From: Oscillatoria princeps RMCB-10
GTDB taxonomy: Bacteria; Cyanobacteriota; Cyanobacteriia; Cyanobacteriales; Oscillatoriaceae
Reading direction: 5' to 3'
DNA length: 52,780 bases
Assembly: GCA_019359235.1 (NCBI GenBank)
Contig: JAHHHT010000048.1
Location: forward strand, 1 to 52,780
Shown: one piece after another, positions 1-13,664 of the stretch
Layout of the letters: the number at the start of each line of letters is the position of its first letter
Position numbering within the stretch: position 1 is the stretch's first letter
Translations under genes and position numbers: made by a program
Notes under the pieces: generated by a model
What the model saw: only the letters and a program-made list of their open reading frames with translations
What the model was told of the DNA's origin: nothing
The model's database searches: none

Positions 1-141
1 CGAACTCCGCGCCGAGTCAGCACTGGTGGAATAGGCACCTGTAGGGGAGTAGACAGTAACTCCCAATCCGCCTTGCACTTCGGTAGTTATGGGAATATCG
101 CTCTCGCAGAAGCTGAGATCGACAATTATTAATTGACTCAT
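1..141 (-). CDS. B-type double-glycine-leader peptide precursor, cut by left edge
   Basis: Translating the reverse strand from an ATG at 141-139 gives an N-terminus starting MSQLIIVDLSFCES and ending its leader in TEVQGG at residues 20-25. The open core then continues off the window. A strong Shine-Dalgarno (AAAGGAGGGAGAA) lies just upstream. The leader shares an FCES box and an x-V-x-GG end with the gene at 6219-6500, so I call both family B. GG-type leaders are the processing signal of C39 peptidase transporters, and one is encoded at 10506-13664. The gene follows the A-type gene at 241-486 by about 100 bp in the same direction, which repeats the A-then-B order seen at 6219-7229. The core is Ser/Thr/Tyr/Ala rich. 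The mature function is unknown. Confidence 0.75.
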   Translation of the reverse strand, partial: MSQLIIVDLSFCESDIPITTEVQGGLGVTVYSPTGAYSTSADSARSS

Positions 142-240
142 TTCTCCCTCCTTTTATCTCAAAAAATCGCTGGAGGCATTTTTTTTACTTATTTAGCCTT
201 CAGCGAGTTTTCTACTTAATCGCAGTCAGCCGCTCTGCAA

Positions 241-486
241 CTAACAAGCTGACGAGCTAGAGCTAGAACCAGAGGAAGCGGAAGAGCCGCTGTAGTAGGG
301 GTAGTACCAGTTGTAGTAGTAGCCGTAATTGTTGGAACTGGCGTTGGTATAACTGCTGGTATAGGTAGCGGCAAAGTTGTAGCCGTTAGCATTGGCATTC
401 GCACCGGCATCTGCAAATGCGACCCCACCTTCTACGCTGGTTTTTTCAGAAATTACTTCCAGTTGTTCCAGATTGCGAATCAACAT
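241..486 (-). CDS. A-type Tyr/Ser-rich secreted peptide precursor (double-glycine leader)
   Basis: This 81-residue peptide has a 21-residue leader (MLIRNLEQLEVISEKTSVEG then G) ending in VEGG and a 60-residue core. The core has no Lys, Arg or His and 11 Tyr. It contains an Asn/Ala alternation, a Tyr-rich stretch around YYYNWYYPYY, a Ser run and a C-terminal Cys. The start is well supported: AAGGAG lies 5 nt upstream. The leader matches those at 6596-6841 and 6984-7229. A promoter-like module with a TGCCA-N3-TGGCA palindrome sits at 554-600. The peptide is inferred to be cleaved after GG and exported by the HetC-like/HlyD machinery. The composition suggests a structural or adhesive peptide as readily as a bacteriocin. 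I do not recognise a named family. Confidence 0.85.
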   Translation of the reverse strand: MLIRNLEQLEVISEKTSVEGGVAFADAGANANANGYNFAATYTSSYTNASSNNYGYYYNWYYPYYSGSSASSGSSSSSSAC

Positions 487-553
487 AAAATTCTCCTTGT
501 AAGGATAGATTGTTCTCAGAGCTGGGCCACCAAATTTCTTTTTTTTCCCTCTC

Positions 554-600
554 TATATATAGACTAGCAAACCCTCCTCGACCTGGCGGCCATTTTGGCA
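554..600 (-). promoter_or_regulatory. Palindromic operator and -10-like box upstream of the A-type gene at 241-486
   Basis: A near-palindrome, GGCCA-TTT-TGGCA, lies at 588-600 and is preceded on the transcribed side by AACAAA. Going towards the gene, GCTAGTCT begins 28 bp from the palindrome centre, with TATATATA at 554-561. The same layout recurs at other genes of the island. The promoter role is inferred from this conserved spacing. Confidence 0.6.
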
Positions 601-762
601 TATTTGTTGGGGGAAAGTCTGTCAGTCATCCGGAGCCTTATTTGCAGCATTTGTTTAGGTAAGCCTTCCAAAAAATAGCCGGCCTAATCCATAACACTTT
701 TGGATTAGGCCGCTAGGAAGAGTTAAATTGTGAAGATTCTCAAAAGGCAGAGCAATCATCGG
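601..762. repeat. Upstream module with 11-bp stem hairpin, copied at 7430-7470 and 7625-7711
   Basis: A perfect 11-bp stem lies at 680-690 and 702-712 (CGGCCTAATCC/GGATTAGGCCG) with an 11-nt loop. It is followed by a block at 717-762 that starts GAGTTAAATTGTGAAG and ends GGCAGAGCAATCATCGG. The hairpin arms and the block recur near 7625-7711, and the hairpin region alone recurs near 7430-7468. In each case the module lies next to a palindromic operator. It could be a terminator-like boundary, an untranslated leader or a small RNA. The sequence alone does not decide. Confidence 0.5.
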
Positions 763-844
763 AGCCGACGTTTTTTCTTTTTCCCGCACCGCAAGGGCGA
801 AGCATGAGCGCTGTTAAATGCGCGTTAAGCAGTAAAACTCCTGA

Positions 845-898
845 CGCTCATGCGAAAGCCCCTACACCAGATCCAATGTAGGGGCTTTCGCATGAGCG
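845..898. repeat. Perfect 22-bp inverted repeat
   Basis: The arm at 845-866 (starting CGCTCATGCGAAAGCCCC) is exactly complementary to 877-898, with a 10-nt loop. No T-run follows. It resembles a small mobile palindromic element more than a terminator. Iterated GCTAACG words follow downstream. Confidence 0.75.
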
Positions 899-1117
899 CG
901 ACGATTTTTGCAATCAGAGAAAAGATGGACATAGCTGCTGACGCAGCCGCTAGCGCGCTTCGCGCCGCTTCGCTAACGCTAACGCTAACGCTCATGCTAG
1001 CTGCTTACGCAGCCGCTGCGAAGCACGCCCTTCCCGTAACGCTACCCGCAGACAACTTCTAAAAAACCTACACTTGTAAGGAGAGGGTAGGGGGTGGGGT
1101 GACGCGAACAGGCTTGG

Positions 1118-1165
1118 GGCGAAAGTCTCTGATAGACTTCCTTGAATTGTCTGTCTCTTTTTAGC
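1118..1165 (-). pseudogene. Fragment of a second parvulin-type isomerase gene
   Basis: On the minus strand this stretch aligns with 5875-5922 of the intact isomerase gene. The shared string AATTCAAGGAAGTCT is flanked by TGCTAAAAA on one side and CAGAGA on the other. It encodes part of the N-terminal LLKTDIQFKEVSQR region, but the frame is lost. It is too short to be functional and is read as a remnant of a duplicated cluster. Confidence 0.6.
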
Positions 1166-1298
1166 ACGTGCCTCATGCTCGTAGGTGCGTGACGCAACCG
1201 TGTCACGCACCCTACTGTATATCTTTAAACTGCTGAAAGCTCGGCTTTCAGCAGTTTATCGATTCAATCACTTACCCGACTGTGGCAATCGCTAAATA

Positions 1299-1619
1299 TT
1301 AGCAGTAGGGATTGATCACCGCAACGGAAGCGCTCCCCGAGAAAGAGCCACCCAGGAATTGGGTCACAGCTACCGTGTCCGCTTTCGTGTAAGAGGAGGT
1401 TGGGTAACAGGTGTTGTTAATCGCATCGCCTTTGGCTCCAGCCGCCGCGCTGTTGCCATAAGACCAAGGCGTGCTTACTGAGGTCGAGAAATTGTTAGTG
1501 GAGTTGAAAGTAATCCCAATCAGGTCGCTTTCTGTATAAGAGCTACTAGCATTTAAGCCCCCCTCGACTTTAGCATCGGCGACCAAAACTTCCAAGTGAT
1601 TCAGGTTTGAGATAATCAT
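1299..1619 (-). CDS. C-type double-glycine-leader peptide precursor, copy 1
   Basis: This 106-residue peptide has a 21-residue leader (MIISNLNHLEVLVADAKVEG then G) and an 85-residue Ser/Thr/Asn/Ala-rich core. The core contains two Cys, one in NTCYPTSS and one as the last residue, so an intramolecular disulfide or a modified ring is possible. The leader pattern [I/L]I-x-[N/D]L-x2-LEV and the VEGG end match the A-type genes, so the same C39 transporter is the likely processor. This copy differs from the other two by two synonymous changes. It is closest to the downstream remnant and has its own upstream operators at 1734-1746 and 1808-1820. The function of the mature peptide is unknown. Confidence 0.85.
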   Translation of the reverse strand: MIISNLNHLEVLVADAKVEGGLNASSSYTESDLIGITFNSTNNFSTSVSTPWSYGNSAAAGAKGDAINNTCYPTSSYTKADTVAVTQFLGGSFSGSASVAVINPYC

Positions 1620-1708
1620 GGTGTTTCTCCGAAGGTTTGTGTTCTAAGTTGGGTTTACTGGAGAGCCTGAAGGGGTTTTGGTTCCCCTCTTTGGCTGGTA
1701 TTTACACT

Positions 1709-1820
1709 CTAGCAATTCAGTGGCGAGGAGTGCGGCCATTTTGGCGGGTTTTTTTTTGTCCCCCTTTTTGGTTATTTCTACTCTAGCCACCTATTCGCTA
1801 GTTGGGATGCCATTATGGCA
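1709..1820 (-). promoter_or_regulatory. Double promoter-operator of C-type copy 1
   Basis: There are two palindromes: GGCCA-TTT-TGGCG at 1734-1746 and a perfect TGCCA-TTA-TGGCA at 1808-1820. On the minus strand each is followed by GCTAGAGT, at 29 bp (1711) and 39 bp (1775) from the palindrome centre respectively. The two spacings differ by about one helical turn. The same pair recurs at 2289/2363 and 2844/2917. Confidence 0.6.
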
Positions 1821-1853
1821 GTTTATTTGTGGCGGTTGGGTGGGAGCTAAATA

Positions 1854-2174
1854 TTAGCAGTAGGGATTGATCACCGCAACGGAAGCGCTCCCCGAGAAAG
1901 AGCCACCCAGGAATTGGGTCACAGCTACCGTGTCCGCCTTCGTGTAAGAGGAAGTTGGGTAACAGGTGTTGTTAATCGCATCGCCTTTGGCTCCAGCCGC
2001 CGCGCTGTTGCCATAAGACCAAGGCGTGCTTACTGAGGTCGAGAAATTGTTAGTGGAGTTGAAAGTAATCCCAATCAGGTCGCTTTCTGTATAAGAGCTA
2101 CTAGCATTTAAGCCCCCCTCGACTTTAGCATCGGCGACCAAAACTTCCAAGTGATTCAGGTTTGAGATAATCAT
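1854..2174 (-). CDS. C-type double-glycine-leader peptide precursor, copy 2
   Basis: The protein is identical to those at 1299-1619 and 2409-2729. It is the middle unit of the 555-bp tandem array and carries its own two upstream operators at 2289-2301 and 2363-2375. Each gene having a full promoter region suggests the array raises dosage rather than forming one long operon. The sequence upstream of the start (CTTCGGAGAAACACC then ATG) contains GGAG at a suitable distance. Confidence 0.85.
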   Translation of the reverse strand: MIISNLNHLEVLVADAKVEGGLNASSSYTESDLIGITFNSTNNFSTSVSTPWSYGNSAAAGAKGDAINNTCYPTSSYTKADTVAVTQFLGGSFSGSASVAVINPYC

Positions 2175-2288
2175 GGTGTTTCTCCGAAGGTTTGTGTTCT
2201 AAGTTGGGTTTACTGGAGAGCCTGAAGGGGTTTTGGTTCCCCTCTTTGGCTGGTATTTACACTCTAGCAATTCAGTGGCGAGGAGTGC

Positions 2289-2375
2289 GGCCATTTTGGC
2301 GGGTTTTTTTTTGTCCCCCTTTTTGGTTATTTCTACTCTAGCCACCTATTCGCTAGTTGGGATGCCATTATGGCA
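2289..2375 (-). promoter_or_regulatory. Operators of C-type copy 2
   Basis: Palindromes at 2289-2301 and 2363-2375 are exact copies of the pair upstream of copy 1, shifted by 555 bp. Confidence 0.6.
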
Positions 2376-2408
2376 GTTTATTTGTGGCGGTTGGGTGGGA
2401 GCTAAATA

Positions 2409-2729
2409 TTAGCAGTAGGGATTGATCACCGCAACGGAAGCGCTCCCCGAGAAAGAGCCACCCAGGAATTGGGTCACAGCTACCGTGTCCGCCTTCGTGT
2501 AAGAGGAAGTTGGGTAACAGGTGTTGTTAATCGCATCGCCTTTGGCTCCAGCCGCCGCGCTGTTGCCATAAGACCAAGGCGTGCTTACTGAGGTCGAGAA
2601 ATTGTTAGTGGAGTTGAAAGTAATCCCAATCAGGTCGCTTTCTGTATAAGAGCTACTAGCATTTAAGCCCCCCTCGACTTTAGCATCGGCGACCAAAACT
2701 TCCAAGTGATTCAGGTTTGAGATAATCAT
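2409..2729 (-). CDS. C-type double-glycine-leader peptide precursor, copy 3
   Basis: This is the third identical 106-residue precursor, with its operators at 2844-2856 and 2917-2929. At the nucleotide level it matches copy 2 at the two positions that distinguish copy 1. That suggests copies 2 and 3 share the latest duplication or conversion. Its upstream region runs straight into the transporter gene remnant at 2955. Confidence 0.85.
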   Translation of the reverse strand: MIISNLNHLEVLVADAKVEGGLNASSSYTESDLIGITFNSTNNFSTSVSTPWSYGNSAAAGAKGDAINNTCYPTSSYTKADTVAVTQFLGGSFSGSASVAVINPYC

Positions 2730-2843
2730 GGTGTTTCTCCGAAGGTTTGTGTTCTAAGTTGGGTTTACTGGAGAGCCTGAAGGGGTTTTGGTTCCCCTCT
2801 TTGGCTGGTATTTACACTCTAGCAATTCAGTGGCGAGGAGTGC

Positions 2844-2929
2844 GGCCATTTTGGCGGGTTTTTTTTGTCCCCCTTTTTGGTTATTTCTACTCTAGCCACC
2901 TATTCGCTAGTTGGGATGCCATTATGGCA
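2844..2929 (-). promoter_or_regulatory. Operators of C-type copy 3
   Basis: Palindromes lie at 2844-2856 and 2917-2929. The T-run between them is shorter than in the other copies, so the two sites are one base closer. Confidence 0.6.
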
Positions 2930-2954
2930 GTTTATTTGTGGCGGTTGGGGAAAT

Positions 2955-3345
2955 CAGTTTCTCACCGCGAAATCGGGCATTCAGGGCGCAGGTCAATAGG
3001 TGTTCCCAGCGCGGCTCGGGGGAAGCTCAGCTGCAGCCGGCTTGACAAAACTCTTGTAGAACGCCGAATCGCGTCTCTCTACAATGCCGTCGCAACCGTT
3101 CATCATATGATTTGGCTGAACAGCGGCGCGATCGCGCCAAAAGCCTGGATCTGCAGGGAGCCAGCGATAATTTGCCCGATCGGGGAGCTGTGGGGCGCAC
3201 CGGCGCTGGCAAACCGGCTAGGAGGCGGGCTAGGGGAGATTTTCTCAGATTCAGCGTCTTTGAGGCAATCCGTGGGATGGAGCCCCAGCGCCTACCCGCT
3301 CCAGTGGGCCACAAATTCTTGCCGCGAGATGGGGCGTTCCACATT
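2955..3345 (-). pseudogene. Decayed fragment of a HetC-like peptidase/ABC transporter gene
   Basis: The stretch 3110-3340 aligns with 12115-12330 of the intact transporter gene. Shared strings include GCCAAAAGCCTGGATC, AATTTGCCCGATC and CCACAAATTCTTG. The stretch 2955-3055 aligns with about 11525-11615 (CATTCAGG, CTCCCAGCGC-like and GCTGCAGCCG matches). The roughly 490 bp between these parts are missing. At the junction (about 3055-3098) there is a short element, GAACGCCGAATCG...CTACAATGCCG. Frames are broken by indels. The fragment corresponds to the end of the C39 domain and parts of the membrane domain, so it cannot work. It lies directly upstream of the C-type array, as the intact gene lies upstream of the A/B genes. 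Confidence 0.8.
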
Positions 3346-3660
3346 AATAGGATCAACTCTTCTGTTTCCCCCCCACCCGGTACGGGGGAGGGGAGTTGGG
3401 GGGGTGGGGTTCCCTTGCCGCAAAGAGTTGTAATCATCCTTCTAATGTGCAACGCCTGAGCGGGGGGTTGCACACTGCAAAGATGATAAAACTCTTTACA
3501 GGTATCCTAGACAACCCCACCCAGGGGGAGGGGTTCATCCCGGCAATGTGCAACGCCCCAATACCCGCCGGCATCACCATTGAGCCGGCCCACACTTTTC
3601 CACACAATTCCCGGCTTGACCACTTTCATGACACCTACATATTTGTTCATCAAATAAATC
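3346..3660. other. Repeat-rich intergenic stretch
   Basis: Holds one copy of the G-rich dispersed element (3367-3412) and a partial second copy near 3514-3560, each followed by a phrase like ATGTGCAACGCC. No gene is supported. Confidence 0.5.
3367..3412. repeat. Dispersed CCCCTCC...GGAGGGGGTTGGGGGGTGGGG element
   Basis: A C-rich arm, a short variable loop and a G-rich arm end in GGGGTGGGGTTC. Other copies lie at about 14078, 22439, 25111, 27531 and 43761. Confidence 0.7.
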
Positions 3661-3701
3661 TGCCAAAATGGCAACATCTATATGGATACCTGAGCTATAA
3701 T
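3661..3701 (+). promoter_or_regulatory. Palindromic operator and TATAAT box upstream of the PEP-CTERM gene
   Basis: A perfect TGCCA-AAA-TGGCA at 3661-3673 is preceded by ATCAAATAAATC. TATAAT at 3696-3701, itself preceded by GC, begins 29 bp from the palindrome centre. This is the same spacing as at the peptide genes but on the opposite strand. Confidence 0.65.
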
Positions 3702-3765
3702 TAAGGAAGGGGAAACCTTTGCTTTTATCCAAAAACTCGTTTGCCACAGGCAGCGCGAGAATGTT

Positions 3766-4623
3766 ATGAAACCAAACCAGAGAATTGCCCAGCGTTTAGT
3801 CGCGCTAATTGCTCCAATAGTTGCCGCACCGGCAATCGCTGTAGCGCCGGCAATGGCGGCCACCCTGGCCTCTTCTGAAGCCACCTTCCAGTTCGATAAC
3901 TTCAGTCACAGCGCCTATTCGGTGGGGGCTGCAACAAACACTAATACTTTGACTGTTGTTACAGGACCTGGCTCCTCAACAACGGCCACGGCAGAAGCTT
4001 TGGCATATTTTGTCCCCGGAACGGCGGGCAATTTTTCTTCGAGTACAGCCAGTGGCCAAGGTAGTTCTTACTTTGGTGTGGCGCAAAGCATGGCCCAAAT
4101 TATTGGGAACTTTTTAGTAGGGCCAGGAGAATCATTTGGTTTCAATTTCAACGCTTCATTAGCCCTAAAAAGCGCCGTTGACAATCCCCAACAGGAAATG
4201 GCCAGCGCTGCGGGACGGACGGCTTTCTTCTTGTTCGGCAGCACTGACGGGGGGCCGGCAAGTCTGCTAGACTCTTTTTCAGTATTTGGTCAGGTAACAA
4301 CACCGGGCAATAATTTCCTGGACTGGCAAAGTAGCGACAATATTAACTATACTTCCGAGAGCAGCCTGAATTATACAGACACAGAATCATTAGCTCTGGC
4401 TGCATTTGAGGGTTGGTATCAGCGCAGTTTCGACAGTCAAATTCAGCTGACTTTAGTCGAATTTAAGGAAAATCAGGCCCAGGTACAAGTCCCAGAACCT
4501 TCAGTCCGGCTGGCTTTACCCTTCTTGCTTCTGCTCATGTGGGTGGGGAGAAAAGTCAGCAGGAGATCCACAATTTTCGGGCAACTGCAGATCGCCGCAA
4601 ATGGGGAAGATTCCAGTCGGTAG
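3766..4623 (+). CDS. PEP-CTERM sorting-domain protein
   Basis: This 285-residue protein has an N-terminal signal peptide: basic start, a hydrophobic Ala-rich stretch to about residue 31, and an AMA cleavage site. The Ser/Thr/Asn-rich middle is low in Lys and Cys. Near residue 245 comes VPEP, followed by a hydrophobic helix and a basic cluster (GRKVSRRS). This is the PEP-CTERM arrangement recognised by exosortase-type sorting enzymes, so the protein is expected at the cell envelope or in the extracellular matrix. An odd tail of about 20 residues follows the basic cluster. Its upstream region carries the same operator as the peptide genes, which implies co-regulation. A hairpin at 4673-4708 follows. 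The middle region has no family I recognise. Confidence 0.8.
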   Translation: MKPNQRIAQRLVALIAPIVAAPAIAVAPAMAATLASSEATFQFDNFSHSAYSVGAATNTNTLTVVTGPGSSTTATAEALAYFVPGTAGNFSSSTASGQGSSYFGVAQSMAQIIGNFLVGPGESFGFNFNASLALKSAVDNPQQEMASAAGRTAFFLFGSTDGGPASLLDSFSVFGQVTTPGNNFLDWQSSDNINYTSESSLNYTDTESLALAAFEGWYQRSFDSQIQLTLVEFKENQAQVQVPEPSVRLALPFLLLLMWVGRKVSRRSTIFGQLQIAANGEDSSR

Positions 4624-4672
4624 GCGTTTCATCCGGGGTGCATCTTAAAAATATCTTCTAGAAGGGATTGGG

Positions 4673-4708
4673 AGAGAGTGCCGGTGCGGTCTTAAACAGG
4701 CACTCTCT
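4673..4708 (+). terminator. Hairpin after the PEP-CTERM gene
   Basis: The arms AGAGAGTGCC (4673-4682) and GGCACTCTCT (4699-4708) form a perfect 10-bp stem. The T-run is weak, so termination is only likely. Confidence 0.45.
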
Positions 4709-4800
4709 GAGGGCGGGTTTATTAATAGCCGGCGCTTTACCGATACATTTCGAGTAAGCCCAGCCCCTGCAGAGCGGCGGGCGAAAGACATTACAGGCAA

Positions 4801-4989
4801 TTAACCGGCAACGCTCTCAGAGTTTGAGCTGCTGCTGCAACTGTTTCCCGACGCATCAATTTTGACGGTAACAGTTTGGCGGATTCTAGTTTCGCCATTG
4901 CCGGTGGCGTATGCTGCGCTTTTTGCCTCGGCGATGACTTTTCCATCTGGGGACGTTAGCCGGTGGGTGAAAACTCTATACTGTGTCAT
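4801..4989 (-). CDS. Small conserved-looking hypothetical protein
   Basis: This 62-residue protein starts MTQYRVFTHRLTSPDGK and has a good Shine-Dalgarno (AGGAGG) 6 nt before the ATG. The first two thirds look like a small beta-rich fold with alternating charged and hydrophobic residues. The tail is Ser/Asn-rich (SCSSSSNSES). There is no leader with a GG motif and no signal peptide, so it is probably not a transporter substrate. It sits between the PEP-CTERM gene and the isomerase gene. I do not recognise a function. Confidence 0.6.
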   Translation of the reverse strand: MTQYRVFTHRLTSPDGKVIAEAKSAAYATGNGETRIRQTVTVKIDASGNSCSSSSNSESVAG

Positions 4990-5007
4990 TTTTTCCTCCT
5001 ACTGTTT

Positions 5008-5044
5008 AGTAGGGTGCGTTCCGCAAAGCGGAACGCACCCTACT
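5008..5044. repeat. GTAGGGTGCGTTCC palindrome
   Basis: A 16-bp perfect inverted repeat (5008-5023 with 5029-5044). A second copy with a different loop lies at 20414-20448. It is followed by other palindromic repeats (CCGTAGGACAGGC...CCTGCCCTACGG) up to about 5142. Confidence 0.7.
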
Positions 5045-5202
5045 GCAATTCTATCCAATAAAAATGCTGCCTGCCTTACCCCCGTAGGACAGGCATCTTG
5101 CCTGGACTTGAGGGCAGGCGGGACACCTGCCCTACGGGGTGTGGCCCTGGGCGGCGTTGCAGATATTTCTACTTCATTCAATTGAAAACTGTTATAATAT
5201 TA

Positions 5203-5967
5203 TTACACCGGCACAGCTCTTTGAGAATTCAAGCTCTCATTACTGAGATGGTAGTTCAACTCACTGTCCAGCCACTGGTTAAACATCCGATTAAGAATCT
5301 CTTGATACCTTTCCGGGGTTAACTGAGCGGGGATAAACTCCTCAACCATCAGCAGGTGATACCCCTGTTCCGTGCGCAGAGGACCGATTGGCTCTCCCAG
5401 GGGGGCGGTAAATACAGCCGCAGCAATCGCCGGCTTCACCGCCCACCGGCAAAGCTTACCTTCATAACCGCACTGCAGCCGGCGGCGCTCATCAATGTCA
5501 TAAAGGCGAGCCGCTTGATAAAAACTGATTTCCTGATTTTCTAATTCATAGTACAGTTCCCGGGCGAGCCTTTCATCTCGCAGCAGGATTTGATAGAGCA
5601 AGACTTGCTCAAAATCCAGTTTATTTTGGGCGAAAAACTTTTCAACTTCCTTGGCGAACAGATAATCAGCCAATTTTTTCCCCAGCAGGCGAGCCCGAAT
5701 GCCAGCCTCCCAGTCATCCGCCGTCATCATTTGGTCAGCTAGCCAAGCTAGGGTGTCCGAAGCCCTCTGCAAACGCTTTTCACAGCGCTGGCGATTCGCC
5801 TCCGCTTCAATTTCTTCGGGAGTAACGCTTACGCCTCTTTCGCGAGCGACTTTTTCTATGAGTTTTTTGTGCAGAATTCTCTGAGAGACTTCCTTGAATT
5901 GGATGTCTGTTTTTAGCAAGGCAAGCACGTCATTTGGCTCAATGGAGGCTCTGGAAAGATTAATCAT
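5203..5967 (-). CDS. Parvulin-type peptidylprolyl isomerase
   Basis: The product is 254 residues. Residues 1-130 form a helical chaperone-like region of SurA/PrsA type. Residues about 150-215 carry a parvulin rotamase pattern: FYQAARLYDID, a basic stretch, AVFTAPLGEPIGPLRTEQGYHLLMVEE. The domain is known to turn Xaa-Pro bonds. No signal peptide is visible, so it probably acts in the cytoplasm. Isomerases of this kind are commonly found beside HlyD/C39-transporter genes in cyanobacteria, which suggests a role in keeping peptide substrates or the transporter competent for export. It is codirectional with the A- and B-type precursors at 6219-7229, with a 251-bp gap. A fragment of a second copy lies at 1118-1165. 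Confidence 0.8.
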   Translation of the reverse strand: MINLSRASIEPNDVLALLKTDIQFKEVSQRILHKKLIEKVARERGVSVTPEEIEAEANRQRCEKRLQRASDTLAWLADQMMTADDWEAGIRARLLGKKLADYLFAKEVEKFFAQNKLDFEQVLLYQILLRDERLARELYYELENQEISFYQAARLYDIDERRRLQCGYEGKLCRWAVKPAIAAAVFTAPLGEPIGPLRTEQGYHLLMVEEFIPAQLTPERYQEILNRMFNQWLDSELNYHLSNESLNSQRAVPV

Positions 5968-6218
5968 AGCTTGATTTTCATCTCTGATGCTGCCGGTTCA
6001 GCCTTTGGGAAATACCCCAGGTGTGACATTAGGAAGAGTCAGTTGTTTTCCCCCTGAGCTTATACCCAGTCCCAATCAGGCTAAATCCGGGCCAGTCAGG
6101 TAGCCCGCTTTAGCCGAAATAGGAATGATTTGATGTTAAAATTAGGTTAGTTTTGTGGCAGAGGTGAGAATAGGTAACCCTTACTCTCAGCACCTGTCAC
6201 CCCTGTACCAGGAAGCTT

Positions 6219-6500
6219 TCAAACCCATGTATAAGCGCTGGCTCCGGTATCGGCTGAGGCATATGCAGGAGAACCCACGCCGTAAGCGCTAGCCACTCCC
6301 TGACTGTAGGAGCCAGCAATGCCGGTGGACACCCCATAGCCGGAGTAACCATTGTTGTAATAAGCATACACCCGAACGCCTGCACTAGCAGCGACACTGG
6401 CGCTAGCATCAGCGGCGGCTGAAACTATAAGTCCGCCGTTGACTTCGCTACTGGGAATAACACTCTCGCAGAAGTCTAGATCCGCAATTCCTAAGCTCAT
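6219..6500 (-). CDS. B-type double-glycine-leader peptide precursor
   Basis: This 93-residue peptide has a 23-residue leader (MSLGIADLDFCESVIPSSEV then NGG) and a 70-residue core rich in Ala, Ser, Gly, Tyr and Val (VYAYYNNGYSGYG and YASADTGASAY). The core has no Lys and one Arg. The Cys in the leader FCES box is shared with the edge gene at 1-141. A strong Shine-Dalgarno (AAAAGGAG) supports the start. It lies about 95 bp downstream of the A-type gene at 6596-6841 and is probably cotranscribed with it. Cleavage after GG by the C39 transporter is inferred. The mature function is unknown. Confidence 0.8.
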   Translation of the reverse strand: MSLGIADLDFCESVIPSSEVNGGLIVSAAADASASVAASAGVRVYAYYNNGYSGYGVSTGIAGSYSQGVASAYGVGSPAYASADTGASAYTWV

Positions 6501-6595
6501 TGATTTTCTCCTTTTAGCATGAATCGCTGCAGGCTTGTTAAAATGCTACCCATTTCGCCCGCAGCGACTTATCAGCAGCTCACTACCGGAAGACC

Positions 6596-6841
6596 TTAGT
6601 AGTAGTAGTAGTAGGGATACCCATAATAGTACCAGCCGGAAGAGGCAGAAGAAGAAGAGCCAGACGCCGAGAAAGCAGAGTAGTAATCGGCGGAGGTTAT
6701 CGTGCCGGTTGAACTGGAGGTGTAGGAACCATAACCATATGCAGATGACAGAGCTCCCGCTTGAGCATACGCATTTCCAGCGCCTTCAACTTGGGTTTCT
6801 TCAGAAATGACTTCCAATTGTGACAAATCGCGAATAATCAT
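6596..6841 (-). CDS. A-type poly-Tyr secreted peptide precursor, copy 2
   Basis: This 81-residue peptide has a 21-residue leader (MIIRDLSQLEVISEETQVEG then A), so cleavage would be after Gly-Ala, a known variant of the double-glycine site. The 60-residue core has 15 Tyr, no Lys/Arg/His after the leader, and ends GWYYYGYPYYYYY. The last five Tyr are encoded by a TAC run, which could change length by slippage. It is a tandem copy of 6984-7229 (one Ser/Thr difference in the core). No operator lies directly upstream, so it is likely cotranscribed with that gene. A structural or adhesive extracellular role is possible. Confidence 0.85.
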   Translation of the reverse strand: MIIRDLSQLEVISEETQVEGAGNAYAQAGALSSAYGYGSYTSSSTGTITSADYYSAFSASGSSSSASSGWYYYGYPYYYYY

Positions 6842-6983
6842 GACTTTCTCTCGAAAATTTCAAAAGGGATGGGTAATGGGGAGGACTATTAAGTGTGGGT
6901 TCTGTCAACTCCCCGCACCGCAGGCTGAGTAGAAATTGATTTTCGCCCGCAGCGACTTATCAGCAGCTCACTACCGGAAGACC

Positions 6984-7229
6984 TTAGTAGTAGTAGTAGT
7001 AGGGATACCCGTAATAGTACCAGCCGGAAGAGGCAGAAGAAGTAGAGCCAGACGCCGAGAAAGCAGAGTAGTAATCGGCGGAGGTTATCGTGCCGGTTGA
7101 ACTGGAGGTGTAGGAACCATAACCATATGCAGATGACAGCGCTCCCGCTTGAGCGTAGGCATTTCCAGCGCCTTCAACTTGGGTTTCTTCAGAAACGACT
7201 TCCAGCTGTTCCAAATCGCGAATCAACAT
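6984..7229 (-). CDS. A-type poly-Tyr secreted peptide precursor, copy 1
   Basis: I start at the internal ATG at 7229 rather than 7262. From there the leader reads MLIRDLEQLEVVSEETQVEG then A, the same length as its relatives, and an AAGGA lies just upstream. The 60-residue core is Tyr/Ser/Gly/Ala rich, ends in five Tyr, and lacks basic residues. It is the first gene after the promoter-operator at 7298-7354 and probably heads an operon with 6596-6841, 6219-6500 and perhaps the isomerase. Export and cleavage by the HetC-like transporter are inferred from the leader. Confidence 0.85.
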   Translation of the reverse strand: MLIRDLEQLEVVSEETQVEGAGNAYAQAGALSSAYGYGSYTSSSTGTITSADYYSAFSASGSTSSASSGWYYYGYPYYYYY

Positions 7230-7297
7230 AAAACTATCCTTGTGAGTACACAATCTTTTCAAATCCAGGGGCTCAAATTTCTTTGTTTGCCCTCTCT

Positions 7298-7354
7298 GTA
7301 TATAGACTAGCTAACCAAACTCGAACTGTCTAGAGGTAGTCTGCCATTTTGGCA
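7298..7354 (-). promoter_or_regulatory. Operator and promoter of the A-A-B precursor group
   Basis: CTGCCA-TTT-TGGCAG at 7341-7355 is followed on the minus strand by TAGACA (7332-7327), a 17-bp spacer and TAGTCT (7309-7304), with TATATA just beyond. The palindrome centre is 39 bp from the -10-like box. Confidence 0.6.
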
Positions 7355-7429
7355 GGTTTGTTTGAAAAACCGCTGTATCCCTCACCCAGACTTATTTTCA
7401 GCCATCTTTTCTGTAAGCCTCACAAACAA

Positions 7430-7767
7430 TAGCCGGCCTAATTAATAAAAACTTTACATTAGGCTTCTGGCAATCGCCGAATTATCAAGTTCATCTCGAC
7501 ATAGCTAACCCGACTCGCGCTGTCAATAGGTATTCTGCCAAAATGGCATGTTTGTAAAAAAAAACTCTGTCTGGAGCCCGCAGCCTTCTTGTCATATGAT
7601 TCTTTATAGAAGTCTCAAAAAGAATAGCCGGCCTAATTCATCAAAACTTTACATTAGGCAGCTGGCAAGAGTTAAATTGTGAAGCTTAATTAAAGGCAGA
7701 GCAATCATCGGCTGACCGGCTTTCTCAAAGCCCTCCCTCAACCGGCATCGTTACTGCGGCAGCCCTC
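7430..7767. other. Second and third copies of the upstream module
   Basis: This stretch has no gene. It contains a second operator-promoter (7498-7548), GCCTAAT/ATTAGGC hairpins near 7436-7467 and 7630-7658, and the GAGTTAAATTGTGAAG...GCAATCATCGG block at 7667-7711. The layout duplicates 588-762. Confidence 0.55.
7498..7548 (-). promoter_or_regulatory. Distal operator and TTGACA promoter
   Basis: A perfect TGCCA-AAA-TGGCA at 7536-7548 is followed on the minus strand by TTGACA (7526-7521), exactly 17 bp, then TATGTC (7503-7498). The centre-to-box distance is again 39 bp. It would fire towards the A-type genes, upstream of the promoter at 7298-7354. Confidence 0.6.
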
Positions 7768-8055
7768 TTATCGAACGCCGAATCGATTCCTTACAATACC
7801 GGCTGGGACACATTCGTTCGCCATCTGGGAGTGACTGGCGGACTCCTCCTTCATTCCCTCACCGAGCTCATTTTCCTTAAGCAGCCGGTTGTACGTCCGG
7901 TAAGGGATGTACTGCAACGGGTTGTAACCGGCACAGCGCAGCATCAAAACACAAGCCCAAGAATACTTGTGTTCCTTGATAGCTCCCACTATCTGCTGAA
8001 TTTGCTCGGCAGAGATGGACTTTTCAACTTTTTTGCTAGCGAATAGCTGAGGCAT
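7768..8055 (-). CDS. HetP-like protein
   Basis: This 95-residue protein has a core (ISAEQIQQIVGAIKEHKYSW, then ACVLMLRCAGYNPLQYIPYR and TYNRLLKEN) that I recognise as the HetP-family signature, known from heterocyst development in Nostoc, where hetP lies beside hetC. Family members also occur in cyanobacteria that make no heterocysts, so no cell-type claim follows. The start has AGGAG upstream, and the gene lies 30 bp after the HlyD gene in the same operon. The last 10-12 residues (GIVRNRFGVR) are encoded by a short dispersed element (GAACGCCGAATCG on the plus strand) that also occurs in the transporter remnant at about 3061. The original C-terminus may therefore have been replaced. Confidence 0.75.
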   Translation of the reverse strand: MPQLFASKKVEKSISAEQIQQIVGAIKEHKYSWACVLMLRCAGYNPLQYIPYRTYNRLLKENELGEGMKEESASHSQMANECVPAGIVRNRFGVR

Positions 8056-8085
8056 GATAAGAGCTCCTGATGAGTAAACAGCGTT

Positions 8086-9972
8086 CTATAAATCAATACC
8101 GCCCTTTTGCAGTTGCTTAATGGGCGCAAGCAAGACATCCGCAATGCGGCGGCGGCGGATGACAATATCGGCAGAGGCGGTTTGACCCGCCTTAAAAACA
8201 ACCGTTTGGCGAGCGCCTTTCAGACTGTCGCGCTCCAGAGTCACTTCCACCCGGTAGACAGCGCCCAACTTCTCATCCGGTTTGGCATCCGGCGAGATAG
8301 AAGTCACCTTCCCCTGGACAATTCCATAATCCTGATACGGATAAGCGTCCAATTTCACCTTCACATCCATGCCGGTCTTCACAAAACCCGCCTCTCGATT
8401 GGGCAAACTCGCCTTCAGCACCAGTGGCGCATCCTTAGGAGCAATCTCCGCAACCGTTTGACCGGGTTGCACCACCTCCCCAGGCTTAGTGACATTCAGC
8501 GACAGCAGCACCCCATCCACCGGCGCAGTCAGGAATCTGTCCTTCAGCTTTGCCTTAGCGCTGCTCAGCAGAGTTTGCGTCTCCGCAATCTTGGCTTTCA
8601 GCTGAGTCAGCTCAACTTCCAGCTGCTGCACCTGCTGCTGCGACTCGATTTGAGTCCGTCGCGCCTCCGCTTCCTTGCTCAAAAGCACCGCACTCAGCCT
8701 GTCAGCTTCCGCTTTAGCTCCCTCAGCTTCGCCCACCGTTTGAGTCATCAACTGCCGGCTGTCGCGCAGCGCTTGCTCAGCTTGAAACAGCTGCTCCTTC
8801 AGATTCGTACCCTCTTGCAACTGGCTTTGCGTAATCGCCCGCGTCGCCTGCGACAGAGATTGCTCCGCTTGAAACAGCTGTTCCTTCAAACTCGTCCCCT
8901 CTTGCAACTCGTTTTTGGTAATGGCGCTGATCCTGTCCCGCAGGGTTTGCTCCGCTTGATACAGCTGCTCTTTGGCAATAGCGCCCTGTTCCACCAGCGG
9001 TTTTAACCGCTCAACCCGCTCCTTGGCGGCGTCAACATCAGCCTGCAGTTGTGCCAGCAACTCCTGATTAGTGCCAGCCAGCGGTTTCAGCCGCTGCAAT
9101 CGCTCCTTCGCCGCAGCTGCGTCTCCCTGCAGTTGCGCCTGCAGTTCCTGGTTAGTCGCCTGCAGGGGTTGCAGCCGGTCGATACGAGCTTGATGCGCAA
9201 TAGCTTGCGAGCGCAGTTGCGCCAGCAGTTGCGCCGTCGTGGTCGCTTTCTCCTTAGCCGCCGCCAGCGCCGCTTTTTGAGCCTGAATCTCCGCCTCCGC
9301 AATCGCCTCACGAGTTCCGACTTCCAGACGCGCTTTTTCCAGCAGCGTTTGCTTCTGGCTCAACTCCACCGAATAGGACTTCTGTTGCTCCTCCAGACGC
9401 TGAACTTCACCGGCAGCCACCTGCGTGTCCAGTTCTAACAGCACAGCGCCGGCTTTCACCGGCTGGCCTTCCTTGACCGGCACACTGGCCACCTTGCCCA
9501 GCTCCACCGGGTTAATCTTATAAACCTCACCTTTAGGCACCAGCTGTCCGCGAGCCTGTCCCACCTCTTCAATTTGGCCCACCCACGCCCAAACTGCAAA
9601 AGCAGCACAGAAAGCCATACCCCCCAGCATCACCCGAAAGGCAAAAGACGAAGGTGGCTGATCCAGCACACTCTGCAGCGAGGGCGACCAATTCCCCACC
9701 GGCGCAACCGCTTTCTGGGGAGTTTCTGGCGGGGATTGTTCTGGCAAAAAAGCCGGTGTCTGGGGTGCACTTACCGCAGAAGCTATACCCCCATAAATCG
9801 CAGCTCCTTCCCCAGAAGCGTCGGAACAAAAATCGCCCTCCAAGTCCGAACAGAGATTGCGCCCATCGGAAGCCGCCGGCTCATCCAAAACGCCCTCCTG
9901 ACTGGAGGCATTTGCCCGCGCCGCACCCAAAGGACTGGCTGTTACGAAACGGTTTCGGAAGCTAGTGTTCAT
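8086..9972 (-). CDS. HlyD-family membrane-fusion adaptor
   Basis: The product is 628 residues. The first about 110 residues are cytoplasmic, acidic and Pro/Ala-rich. One membrane helix spans about 112-133 (RVMLGGMAFCAAFAVWAWVG). A lipoyl-like hairpin follows (VPVKEGQPVKAGAVLLELD), then a very long coiled coil (about 195-500) with internal repeats such as LKEQLFQAEQ(S/A)L and AKER(L/V)(Q/E)RLKPL. The C-terminal half-lipoyl and beta-barrel region contains FLTAPVDGVLLSLNV. This is the periplasmic adaptor that joins an inner-membrane ABC exporter to a TolC-like channel. It lies between the HetC-like and HetP-like genes, with 533 bp separating it from the former. An operator-like palindrome is at 10285-10299. 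The coiled coil is longer than in typical HlyD proteins. Confidence 0.92.
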   Translation of the reverse strand: MNTSFRNRFVTASPLGAARANASSQEGVLDEPAASDGRNLCSDLEGDFCSDASGEGAAIYGGIASAVSAPQTPAFLPEQSPPETPQKAVAPVGNWSPSLQSVLDQPPSSFAFRVMLGGMAFCAAFAVWAWVGQIEEVGQARGQLVPKGEVYKINPVELGKVASVPVKEGQPVKAGAVLLELDTQVAAGEVQRLEEQQKSYSVELSQKQTLLEKARLEVGTREAIAEAEIQAQKAALAAAKEKATTTAQLLAQLRSQAIAHQARIDRLQPLQATNQELQAQLQGDAAAAKERLQRLKPLAGTNQELLAQLQADVDAAKERVERLKPLVEQGAIAKEQLYQAEQTLRDRISAITKNELQEGTSLKEQLFQAEQSLSQATRAITQSQLQEGTNLKEQLFQAEQALRDSRQLMTQTVGEAEGAKAEADRLSAVLLSKEAEARRTQIESQQQVQQLEVELTQLKAKIAETQTLLSSAKAKLKDRFLTAPVDGVLLSLNVTKPGEVVQPGQTVAEIAPKDAPLVLKASLPNREAGFVKTGMDVKVKLDAYPYQDYGIVQGKVTSISPDAKPDEKLGAVYRVEVTLERDSLKGARQTVVFKAGQTASADIVIRRRRIADVLLAPIKQLQKGGIDL

Positions 9973-10505
9973 GATCTCCTACTCTTCCTCCATTCAAAAT
10001 AATTGCCGCTTTTTTTTTATCTAAAATGACCCGTTCTCCCGCTATTAATTAGGATTTATATCCCTCCTTAATCCGTTATAAAATATTAGATTCGCACGCC
10101 AATTGGCCTGCAACTACCCTAGAGTCAATCGCGGCGCGATTGCGCCTACATTTTTGCGCGAATCATTTAGGAGCGCTATATATCCACTGCTTTTCAGGCA
10201 GTCATTACCGCTACCTTGTCAAATCGTTACTGTTATAATTTAACCCAAAAAACAGTGAAAACACTCACACCGAAACTGCTTTTGCTGCCAATTTGGCAGG
10301 TTTGTTCACAACTTTACTGAATCTTTACAATTGCGGGCTAAAATGCAGCTGCTTATTGCCCTTTTTTAAAGTTTTGATGAAGCTGGGTTGGGGTGAAAAC
10401 ACCGATCTGCCCTGACTGGCCAAACATGGCCCCTTTCAGAAACCTCGTCTTTTCAGCAAATCGGCTTTCTTAACCCAGCAACCCCTGCTCAGGTTTTCTG
10501 TACGA
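9973..10505. other. Intergenic region between adaptor and transporter genes
   Basis: This 533-bp stretch has no gene. It carries one CTGCCA-ATT-TGGCAG palindrome (10285-10299) and an AT-rich TATAAC-like box on the minus strand at 10232-10237. The spacing between them (about 55 bp) differs from the other sites. Confidence 0.5.
10285..10299 (-). promoter_or_regulatory. Palindromic operator upstream of the HlyD gene
   Basis: CTGCCA-ATT-TGGCAG is preceded on the minus strand by AACAAAC, as at the peptide genes. This suggests the export genes share the regulator of their substrates. Confidence 0.55.
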
Positions 10506-13500
10506 TTACAGATCCAGTTGCTGCTGGGCTAAGTGACAGTAAAGCCCTCGCCGCGCCATCAGCTCACCGTGAGTTCCTTGCTCCACCAAAACCCCCCTGT
10601 CCAGCACCAAAATGCTGTCCGCATTGCGCACTGTACTGAGCCGGTGGGCAATAATAAACGTCGTCCTGTCCCGCGACAAACGCTCCAAATTATGCTGGAA
10701 TCTCCTTTCCGATTCCGTATCCAGAGAACTCGTCGCCTCGTCCAGTACCAAAATCCTCGGATCTCCCAACAAAGCCCGAGCAATAGCAATCCGCTGTCTC
10801 TGTCCTCCAGAAAGCATTGAACCCCGCTCGCCCACCTTGGTGCTGTATCCTAAAGGCATGTCCTGAATAAAGGCGTGCGCCTCCGCCAGTTTGGCCACCT
10901 CGGTGACTTGCTCCAGCGTGAATTCAGGCCGGTATAAGGTAATATTCTCCAGAATAGTTCCTGAAAACAAGAAGCACTCTTGCGGCACCACGCCCATTTG
11001 AGAGCGCAACGATTGCGGAGAAACCAGCCGGATATCGTGCCCGTCAATCTGGATGCGGCCCGAATCTGGGCGGTACAGAATTTGCAGCAGGCTGACCAAG
11101 GTACTCTTTCCCGACCCGCTGCGCCCGACAATAGCAATGGTTTGTCCCGGACGCGCCTCGAAGGAAATATTCTGTAACGTATTGCGCTCCTGCTGCGGGC
11201 TGTAGCTGAAGGTGACATTCTCGAACCGCACCTCCCCCCGCAACCGGGGCAAACTCAGCATTTGCTGTCCGGGAATCTCTTCCGGCTGCGCTTCAAAAAC
11301 ATCATTGAGCCGCTCTACCGAAATCGTCACTTCTTGCATTTGATCCCAGAGATTCACCACCGCCAGCACGGGGCTGATCACTTTGCCAATCATCATGTTG
11401 AAGGCCACAAACTGGCCAATGGTGAGCTGGTCTTGAATCACCAGGGTAGCTCCGTACCACAGCAAAGCCGCACTCCCCAAGCTATTGATGGAGCCGCCGG
11501 CAGCTTGCAGAAAGTTCGCCAGTTTTTGACCGCGAAACCGCGCATTCAGGGAGCTGGTAAATTGATGCTCCCAGCGCCAGCGGATTTCTCGCTCCGCTGC
11601 AGCCGCCTTGACGGTACTGACGCCGGTGAGCATTTCTACCAGCAAGGAGTTTTGACCGGCTTCTTCGTTAAAAATATCCCGCGACACCCGCCGCAGCAGG
11701 GGAGTCGCCACCAAAGTTAAGATGGCAATCGGGGGAATCAAAGCCAGCACCAGCACAGTCAGTTGCCAGTTGTAGTAAGCCATCAGCCCCATATAGGCAG
11801 CCCCCATCAGCATGTCCAGCCAAGCCAGGACAACTTGGCGCGTCAGAAATTGCTGGATTTTCTGGTTTTCCTGAACGCGGGTGATGATGTCTCCCACGCG
11901 GCGGGATTCAAAAAACTTCAGGGGTAAGGTGAGGGTGTGGCTGATAAAGCCGCTAATCAGAGTGAGGTCAAAGCGGTTGGAGAAATAGTCCAGCAGGTAC
12001 TGTCGGGTGGCGGTTAAGCCGGTGCTCCACACCCCAAACAGCACCAGCCCCAGGGCGAAGACATTCAGACTGCTGGAGCTTTTGCTCACCACTACTTTGT
12101 CGAGAATGATTTGGGTGAACAGTGGGGTGACGACGCCAAAAGCCTGGATCAGCAGGGAGGCGAGGATAATTTGCCCGATCAGGAAGCGGTAGGGCGCAAG
12201 GGCGCTGGCAAACCGGCTCAGGGAGATTTTTTGAGATTCAGCCTCTTGCAGGCGATCCGTGGGATCGAGCAGCAGCGCGTACCCGCTCCAGTGCGCCACA
12301 AATTCTTGTCGCGAGATGGAGCGTCTGCCTATCGCTGGATCGGCAATCAGGATGCGATCGCCCTTGCAGCGGTAGACAACGATATAGTGAATTCCCTCCC
12401 AGTGAGCTATCCAGGGGTTTTTCCGCTCTTCTAGCTTGTTCAGGGAAGCTCGCACCGGCATGGCGTGGAATCCCAAGCTTTCCGCAGCTTTGGCTAGCCC
12501 TCCGGTGAGGGAAGCCCCCGACCGGCCCACACCGGCAAGCTCGCGCAGGTAGTTGAGGGTAAACCGCTTCCCCCAATACTGGCTTATCATCGCAAGGCAA
12601 GCCGCGCCGCAATCGGAAGAGCTCTGCTGCTCAATAAAGGGATATCTCGCCAGCCAATCCAGGAAACGCCGGCTTGCCGGTTTGGGAAAGGCGACAGAGG
12701 GCGGTTGGGCGCTCTCTTTTGCTTTCTCCTGTTTGTCTGGCTCTCCTCTGTCTGCACCGACTGGTTGGGGGAGATGTCCTGATTCCTTGACGACTGACAG
12801 GTGCCGTCTGGGGGCGGGTGCCGGTTGCCGGTTGCCATTACCGCTCTCTTCTGGCAATCTGAAATGTGCCGGTGCGATTGAGTGGGCGTGCTGCCAGTGT
12901 TCCACCGGCAAGTGGTAGACTAGCAAGTCAGTCTCCGCCACCCAGTCTGCCGGTGTGGCGTCTGGATAGCCCCAGCTAGCTCCCGGCGCTGGCGGTTGGG
13001 TTAGCTCCCCCTGGTGCCGGATTTGCCCGCCGGCAAGCCAGAACCGGCCATTTGCTGCAGGAGTCCGCGCTTGCAGGGATTCGCCGGTTGCAACCCGCAG
13101 TTGCGTCAAATAAGGCAAAAGTTCCTCCACTTGGAGGCTGGAGCAGCGGCGCAATTCTGTTGAGGTTTTGAATAATATCAGGCTTTGTCGCTGCTGGGTA
13201 ATTGAGAGCAGGTGGTTTTGCAGATTTGGCAGTCGCTGCAAATACTGCTGGAGTTTGCCGGCTGGAATGCGAGCCATCGCACCGGCAGTGGCTGCTACGG
13301 CTCGGTAAGGCAGGGGATGATGGCAGAATAGAGAGTCCGCGCCAAAGGTATCGCCCGCTTCCAGCACTAAGGCTGACACCTCTTGCATCCTTTCGGCATC
13401 AAAGACAACCAGCCGCACCCGCCCGGAACAAACGATATAAAAATCACTCTTAATATATTGAGATTGACTGTTTTTATCTGAGGGGTTAGACCCCACATCA

Positions 13501-13664
13501 GTCAGCTCATCCCCTAACTGGAAATTAAGGGCAACAAAAGCTTTGCTGAGCTCTGTAGCCTGGGTAACATCGCTCTGACTGGCTGTCAAAAGCTGGGCGA
13601 GCGCCAGCCAGCTTGTTGAGGCGTTTGGTTCCGCACCTTCCTTACTCCCTAAACTCCCTTTCAT
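10506..13664 (-). CDS. HetC-like peptidase-containing ABC transporter
   Basis: The product is 1052 residues. Residues about 45-160 resemble a cyclic-nucleotide-binding fold, and a second weaker one may follow to about 265. A linker leads to a C39 peptidase (about 332-470) with Gln346, Cys352 in DCGAAC, His426 in GIHYIVVY and Asp442 in IADPA, so the active site is complete. The membrane domain spans about 490-790. The nucleotide-binding domain has Walker A GRSGSGKST, signature LSGGQRQR, Walker B ILVLDEATSSLD and the switch His in AHRLST. Transporters of this build cleave double-glycine leaders and export the core. The length and domain order match HetC of Nostoc. It is the likely exporter of the eight precursors. 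Two 74-bp direct repeats precede the gene. A decayed paralogue lies at 2955-3345. Confidence 0.93.
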   Translation of the reverse strand: MKGSLGSKEGAEPNASTSWLALAQLLTASQSDVTQATELSKAFVALNFQLGDELTDVGSNPSDKNSQSQYIKSDFYIVCSGRVRLVVFDAERMQEVSALVLEAGDTFGADSLFCHHPLPYRAVAATAGAMARIPAGKLQQYLQRLPNLQNHLLSITQQRQSLILFKTSTELRRCSSLQVEELLPYLTQLRVATGESLQARTPAANGRFWLAGGQIRHQGELTQPPAPGASWGYPDATPADWVAETDLLVYHLPVEHWQHAHSIAPAHFRLPEESGNGNRQPAPAPRRHLSVVKESGHLPQPVGADRGEPDKQEKAKESAQPPSVAFPKPASRRFLDWLARYPFIEQQSSSDCGAACLAMISQYWGKRFTLNYLRELAGVGRSGASLTGGLAKAAESLGFHAMPVRASLNKLEERKNPWIAHWEGIHYIVVYRCKGDRILIADPAIGRRSISRQEFVAHWSGYALLLDPTDRLQEAESQKISLSRFASALAPYRFLIGQIILASLLIQAFGVVTPLFTQIILDKVVVSKSSSSLNVFALGLVLFGVWSTGLTATRQYLLDYFSNRFDLTLISGFISHTLTLPLKFFESRRVGDIITRVQENQKIQQFLTRQVVLAWLDMLMGAAYMGLMAYYNWQLTVLVLALIPPIAILTLVATPLLRRVSRDIFNEEAGQNSLLVEMLTGVSTVKAAAAEREIRWRWEHQFTSSLNARFRGQKLANFLQAAGGSINSLGSAALLWYGATLVIQDQLTIGQFVAFNMMIGKVISPVLAVVNLWDQMQEVTISVERLNDVFEAQPEEIPGQQMLSLPRLRGEVRFENVTFSYSPQQERNTLQNISFEARPGQTIAIVGRSGSGKSTLVSLLQILYRPDSGRIQIDGHDIRLVSPQSLRSQMGVVPQECFLFSGTILENITLYRPEFTLEQVTEVAKLAEAHAFIQDMPLGYSTKVGERGSMLSGGQRQRIAIARALLGDPRILVLDEATSSLDTESERRFQHNLERLSRDRTTFIIAHRLSTVRNADSILVLDRGVLVEQGTHGELMARRGLYCHLAQQQLDL

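Follow-up and report, generated by a model that had tools for sequence, protein, structure and literature searches.

The first 13,664 bases of a 52,780-nucleotide window from the cyanobacterium Oscillatoria princeps RMCB-10, which begins at base 1 of contig C52 in a genome of 8.49 Mb, hold an island of small peptide genes around a C39 peptidase exporter. On balance, and with moderate confidence, this island is read as one that exports β-rich extracellular structural peptides, destined for the cell surface or matrix, by machinery of the kind termed “group II” in cyanobacteria. The reading is favored because a secreted companion protein co-occurs with the exporter, the promoter of the precursor genes is common to genes for extracellular proteins, no immunity or modification family recurs among the neighbors, the precursors occur in tandem copies, and the EbfG proteins of Synechococcus elongatus offer a precedent. 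The first-pass annotation of this DNA had already judged the products to be more like matrix than bacteriocin; the support found for that view is indirect and comes from the companion, the promoter, the neighboring genes, the identical copies, the EbfG precedent and, in addition, a β-like alternation in the mature peptides.

All of the genes named in that annotation are present, on the minus strand, including its eight short leader-bearing genes, one of which (1–141) is incomplete at the contig edge. Three encode core A (241–486, with a leader ending in VEGG; 6596–6841 and 6984–7229, both ending in VEGA, the last assigned an ATG start within a longer TTG frame to 7262), two encode core B (the cut gene at 1–141, ending in VQGG, and 6219–6500, ending in VNGG) and three encode core C (1299–1619, 1854–2174 and 2409–2729). 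Leaders are 21 residues long in A and C and 23 and 25 residues in B. The tyrosine content claimed for core A, up to 15 in 60 residues, is borne out in the copies at 6596–6841 and 6984–7229, as are the two cysteines of core C. The three core C genes, which encode identical proteins at a spacing of 555 bp, are one gene copied. For the precursors as a whole, Pfam and NCBIfam gave no convincing match to a known family.

A scan of genome contigs for the exporter gave 76 loci, of which 71 (L031–L101) were used together with the window and a stretch of contig C51 from the same genome (L008), making 73 stretches, many of which end at contig ends. The leader profile search across relatives that the first-pass annotation had proposed was run with a 13-seed model at E < 0.05 and a minimum of 45 residues, and it finds precursors in 56 of the 73 stretches, so that the association of leaders with these exporters is not a chance observation.

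The exporter itself (10506–13664, minus strand) is of the long type and scores over cut-off for cNMP_binding (40.9 bits), Peptidase_C39 (137.8 bits), ABC_membrane and ABC_tran. Its C39 domain aligns with that of PCAT1 (4ry2) across the Cys, His and Asp positions, at residues that we take to be the catalytic triad, so that the triad earlier called complete is intact by this alignment; that the exporter cuts such leaders, as had been proposed, is well supported by family membership and residue conservation. The other members of the machinery that had been recognized, all on the same strand and all over their profile cut-offs, are a HlyD-type adaptor (8086–9972; type_I_hlyD), a PpiC/SurA-type peptidyl-prolyl isomerase (5203–5967; Rotamase) and a HetP family gene (7768–8055; 104.8 bits against a cut-off of 45). 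From these families, precursors would be recognized through their MIIxDLxxLE...G[GA] leaders, cut by the C39 domain after the double glycine, and exported through the ABC transporter, the HlyD adaptor and an outer-membrane channel encoded elsewhere; the isomerase, which has no evident signal peptide, may hold precursors unfolded in the cytoplasm.

The same machinery can be read quite differently, with the peptides acting as signals in cell differentiation or filament patterning. The exporter is HetC-like, a HetP gene occurs in 51 of the 73 stretches, and heterocyst formation in Nostoc sp. PCC 7120 depends on HetC and its cNMP domain (PMC10986499). This role is nevertheless judged distinctly improbable, as cores of about 60–85 residues in several identical copies suit dosage over signaling, the island has a HlyD gene whereas that source reports no membrane fusion gene near hetC, and a receptor was not seen.

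In the mature cores, hydropathy alternates in a β-like manner (lag 1 z −5.4, lag 2 +3.2, lag 3 −6.3, with z values that ignore relatedness among the sequences). AlphaFold models of cores A and C each contain three 13-residue strands, with low to moderate confidence: the core A model, from a 20-row alignment, has a pLDDT of 66.7 with the tyrosine tail below 50, and that of core C, from 13 rows of which six are other core types, a pLDDT of 52.7 with the first 27 residues below 50. The first-pass annotation had described three unrelated cores, a view that holds for B as a separate type and is weakened for A and C by intermediate sets of cores (A2 and D) in profile comparisons. In hhalign, C matches D at 88% (score 35.0 against a maximum of 15.8 in 60 column shuffles) and A matches D at 73% (28.6 against 13.7 in as many shuffles), with A–A2 at 92% and A2–D at 85%, both figures without a shuffle control; the direct comparison of C with A is marginal (3.6%, with a score of 17.0 where shuffles reach 14.1). 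By these comparisons, A and C are probably distant relatives. Tyrosine accounts for 25% of the residues in the two window A copies measured, and Oscillatoria sp. PCC 10802 has the same share in three of its four A copies; in the next relatives it falls from 24% to 13%, so that tyrosine richness is a trait of a single core branch. Aromatic C-terminal tails were considered as a general core feature and set aside, for they occur in 32 of 111 cores and the highest of 500 shuffles also reached 32. A further core type is seen in PCC 10802, where seven closely similar precursors lie beside its second cluster (L100, 19217–21784).

Among the genes absent from the first-pass annotation is the companion (3766–4623, plus strand). 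Neither Pfam nor NCBIfam gave a match for it, and by eye it was read as having a signal peptide and a PEP-CTERM-like tail (for background on PEP-CTERM, see PMC10957091). An iterative model built from it collects 37 proteins in 32 of the 73 stretches, reduced to 31 companions by dropping five that were drawn in through RTX repeats or as a precursor and by counting the PCC 10802 gene once. Fifteen of the 31 tails carry a PEP motif, three a degenerate PEP motif, 11 at least two RTX motifs, and two, one of them cut by the stretch end, are unassigned. Across 60 genomes of the order, the companion domain is found in 12, all of which are among the 13 with an exporter above 1100 bits, a line for “close exporter” that was set after viewing the list. 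Thirteen of the 18 companion copies in these genomes lie within about 10 kb of an exporter, four are on other contigs and one is far off in a one-contig genome; in one genome (G041), the exporter beside the companion is of a more distant type. A palindrome of the kind described below lies within 450 nt upstream of 6 of the 37 proteins collected by the model. During iteration, the model also took up a precursor (L048, 16766–17074), which may point to a shared ancestry of companion and cores or be a matter of composition.

The second line of evidence, likewise absent from that annotation, is a promoter architecture that precedes precursors in many genomes, consisting of the palindrome TGCCAWWWTGGCA and, exactly 22 nt beyond it, a −10 box. 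Eleven GCCW5GGC sites occur in the window, all within its first 10.3 kb, and allowing up to two mismatches to TGCCAWWWTGGCA gives 19 sites, where 100 shuffles average 6.4 and reach at most 14. Exact sites number 16 across the genome, seven in the island and two in the cluster on C51, whereas a backwards control gives none. Of 30 genomes, among them this one, 22 have sites; the counts per genome run from 0 to 17, and those of the control from 0 to 3. An exact site lies 60–130 nt upstream of 37 of the 112 precursors outside the Nostoc-type clade, compared with 179 of 22,400 random windows. When a −10-like box is defined as at least four of the six letters of TATAAT, 33 of 40 distinct precursor promoters have one exactly 22 nt after the site, against 6 of 40 in the opposite orientation, and none of the other offsets between 8 and 41 exceeds 15 of 40. 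Outside the clusters, 30 oriented sites (L162 and L165 being omitted as clusters, along with any site lacking an open reading frame within 420 nt) reduce to 21 non-redundant ones, 15 of which have the box at offset 22, with other offsets reaching at most 6. The full pattern of site, 22 nt and TANNNT has 35 occurrences in 18 of the 60 genomes, with a single match for the control; of the 13 close-exporter genomes 12 contain it, and of the remaining 47 genomes 6 do. Class II activators bind at sites centered near −41. An activator bound at TGCCAWWWTGGCA, centered about 41 bases before the start point, probably switches transcription on, the DNA pattern being observed and both activator and start point deduced from it. 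A search for the regulator of this promoter did not find it.

Several of these operators can be placed in the island. The core C genes have one at 1808–1820 (minus strand), with TAGAGT (four of six letters) at offset 22, repeated at 2363–2375 and 2917–2929, and a second, imperfect palindrome near the same genes at 1734, 2289 and 2844. The companion has one at 3661–3673 (plus strand), with a perfect TATAAT at offset 22. The two core A promoters deviate in spacing: the site at 588–600 (no strand assigned) has one mismatch and its best box, TATATA (four of six), at offset 26, and the minus-strand site at 7342–7354 has an equal box at offset 37. A further site lies at 7536–7548 and another, on the minus strand, 5′ of hlyD at 10286–10298, neither with a box at offset 22.

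The promoter is not restricted to these clusters. One of three Microcoleus-like genomes from the window's family (G003) was searched and lacks a close exporter, which indicates a regulon extending beyond the clusters. In all three, sites precede tandem tyrosinase genes; the one in L138 (Tyrosinase 156.5 bits, PEP-CTERM just below cut-off) has relatives 90–92% identical in L152 and L158. Other targets in this group include RTX-repeat proteins in two of the three genomes (L140, and L154 at 72%), a giant DUF4347/FG-GAP protein in two (L143, and L150 at 87%) and an SLH protein in one (L137). The genome of the window itself has sites 413 nt upstream of a gene for a polysaccharide-export protein (L133) and 222 nt upstream of a Nif11-type leader gene (L131), each with a four-of-six box. 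The target set is not wholly extracellular, as it also takes in a sugar-phosphate deaminase-like gene (named by eye). Some sites are inside genes or have no gene nearby. In L138, the secreted tyrosinase genes at 2325–3710 and 4457–5818 stand in tandem with the palindrome between them, as also in L152 and L158; tyrosinase and tyrosine-rich cores under this promoter were not seen together in one genome. As a partner in the window's genome, tyrosinase was rejected: the single gene there is on contig C8, which has no palindrome site, and the tyrosinase link therefore rests on relatives. Elsewhere (L163, 4076–4381), a different GG-leader gene with TTLALGEEGGG-type short repeats has the palindrome 71 nt upstream and TAGATT at offset 22, so that the promoter serves other peptide families too.

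What else recurs beside the exporters bears on the chief competing explanation, that the products are bacteriocins (microcin-like antimicrobials), as in a 2011 classification, with gene copies and core diversity reflecting competition between strains. When neighbor families were grouped by single linkage over the 73 stretches, the exporter was found in 73, HlyD in 68, HetP in 51 and the isomerase in 49, followed by a companion/RTX group in 42 that is over-linked through RTX repeats. Smaller groups are the main precursor family (35), a glycosyltransferase-like family (12), the 62-residue protein described below (11) and two families of 6, one of which consists of precursors; no further family reached 6. 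Putative bacteriocin clusters have this machinery and these leaders, and the mature cores, rich in Ala, Ser, Thr, Gly and Asn, vary strongly between genomes, both of which fit an antimicrobial role. Yet no recurrent immunity-like or modification family was found among these neighbors, a surface-type companion is co-inherited, the promoter is common to surface-protein genes, and tandem copies are identical; near-identical core pairs, present in 12 of the 28 loci with at least two cores, point to dosage. Antimicrobial activity is accordingly considered unlikely.

Another possibility is that the cores are post-translationally modified, lanthipeptide-like precursors whose modifying enzymes act from elsewhere. 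It is prompted by the sister cluster on C51 (L008, 1182–3982), where a Ser/Pro-rich precursor comes before genes for an LxmK-like kinase and for a HopA1-family protein. This pair recalls the enzymes of class V lanthipeptides, for which LxmK and HopA1-type proteins are presumably diagnostic. The Ser- and Thr-rich cores would suit such chemistry. But the pair is absent from the window and occurs in only one of the 73 stretches, which removes it as a general modifier; the HopA1 protein is over cut-off while the kinase reaches 90.9 bits against a cut-off of 315, and cysteine is present in only 14 of 111 cores. Modification of this kind is regarded as very unlikely.

The sister cluster also informs the history of the island. 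Its exporter is 72% identical to that of the window and is accompanied by its own HetP, HlyD and isomerase genes. C51 ends after a companion and a 62-residue gene, and in the window the isomerase comes next, which makes it probable that C52 begins next to where C51 stops. On the minus strand of the window, and missing from the first-pass annotation, are remnants of an isomerase gene (1114–1166, 83% identical to 5866–5918) and of an exporter gene (3107–3337, 83–84% DNA identity to 12106–12324), so that the first 5 kb resemble a second unit that has decayed and the island is, on the sequence evidence, a cluster duplication in partial decay. On a single contig, Oscillatoria sp. PCC 10802 carries two clusters, whose exporters share 91% and 70% identity with that of the window and start about 13.6 kb apart by coordinates. 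The remnants might be taken to mean that the whole is a decaying or silent duplication without present function. This is extremely unlikely, since the unit at 5203–13664 has open reading frames throughout with its operators kept, and relatives retain leaders, cores and promoter.

Set against an extracellular structural role are several observations. The Nostoc-type clade lacks the palindrome, with a site at only 1 of 28 precursors, and in the window itself the core A promoters and the hlyD site have no box at offset 22. Ser/Thr kinase and peptide-synthetase-like genes (named by eye) are also found behind the promoter. The structural models have low to moderate pLDDT values (52.7 for core C, 66.7 for core A), the A–C link runs only through intermediates, a link of core B to A or C was unsupported in profile comparison without shuffles, and tyrosine richness is limited to one branch of cores. 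Finally, group II products have been called bacteriocins in print (PMC3140520).

If the structural role is nonetheless correct, mature cores A and C would stack into β-rich, possibly amyloid, fibers or films. A more specific and rather doubtful proposal is a curli-like cyanobacterial fiber, in which GG-exported three-strand β peptides would polymerize on the anchored companion, with PEP-CTERM and RTX swapped as its anchor, under an activator that would also switch on surface proteins and, in Microcoleus-like genomes, secreted tyrosinases; tyrosine oxidation or cross-linking might then harden the material in strains with tyrosine-rich cores. Should the products belong to the surface or matrix, “bacteriocin” is a misleading annotation for a class of them, and a defined protein constituent of the sheath or mat would be known for filamentous cyanobacteria. 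This reading can be tested through the promoter motif, which points to candidate co-regulated genes and offers a DNA element for capturing the regulator.

Further features of the region are less readily tied to function. The 62-residue conserved protein without leader (4801–4989, minus strand), another gene that had not been annotated, has a Ser-rich end and is found in 10 other clusters. It was considered as a leaderless core, with weak results (17% with set D, score 21.4 against a shuffle maximum of 15.1, and unsupported with A2 and C), and is possibly a weakly core-like cytoplasmic partner. An inverted repeat at 834–909, with 33-nt arms that are 88% complementary, lies between core A and core C genes. 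Among the surveyed loci, one cluster (L073), whose exporter is 71% identical to that of the window, is in a metagenome-assembled genome labeled Candidatus Gracilibacteria, most likely through a binning error.

The first-pass annotation knew of no described system with this combination of genes, which at the level of architecture was wrong. Wang et al. in 2011 described group II, of which they counted 23 clusters and whose products they called bacteriocins, as a long-type C39 exporter with an N-terminal nucleotide-binding domain, HlyD and SurA (rotamase) genes, and several precursors with HetP-like genes (PMC3140520). All of these are present in the window, with eight precursors, and the island machinery is therefore of a known kind that fits group II by architecture, HetP included. 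The published motif KIXDLXYLEX10GG is close to the window leaders, which have about nine residues before the GG instead of 10, and the accessible text of that description does not mention a companion protein or a palindromic promoter, both present here (PMC3140520). As for the possibility, raised in the first-pass annotation, that the leaders belong to a known family with another function, it is half borne out, since they do belong to a known class, labeled “putative bacteriocin”; a test of any group II product was not found in the literature searched. An M16 peptidase is given as characteristic of group II (PMC4558948); C52 has no M16 match, and two M16-type genes are on C51 at 85.8–87.8 kb, about 7 kb from the sister cluster. 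On C8, a separate long-type exporter of 935 residues, accompanied by isomerase and HlyD genes, resembles the near-universal group I.

Curli (CsgA/CsgB) consist of small secreted β-rich subunits with an anchored partner. The likeness of the proposed window system is to that idea, and the differences are that curli use another exporter and that curlin repeats were not seen in the window system. HetC and HetP of Nostoc sp. PCC 7120 resemble the island in the C39 exporter with its N-terminal cNMP domain and in the adjoining HetP gene, but differ in that neither a membrane fusion gene nor a GG-leader gene is reported near hetC (PMC10986499), whereas the window has both; the HetC study also reports ppGpp binding. 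For the EbfG/PteB system of Synechococcus elongatus PCC 7942, a biofilm and matrix function has been shown, with EbfG1–3 forming amyloid, EbfG4 located on the surface and in the matrix, and a C39 exporter system involved (PMC4997328, PMC9981879). Compared by description, the two systems share small GG-motif proteins, a C39 exporter and Tyr-containing cores; the mature EbfGs, however, are reported to lack homology to other cyanobacterial proteins, and the table of Wang et al. lists for PCC 7942 a single cluster each of groups I and III but none of group II (PMC3140520). In the literature searched, which misses most subscription journals, KIXDLXYLE appears in two papers, and among the papers listed no description of the palindrome in cyanobacteria or of the companion was found; new, as far as that search extends, are the companion with its swapped tails, the promoter architecture with its wider gene set, and the link between cores A and C.

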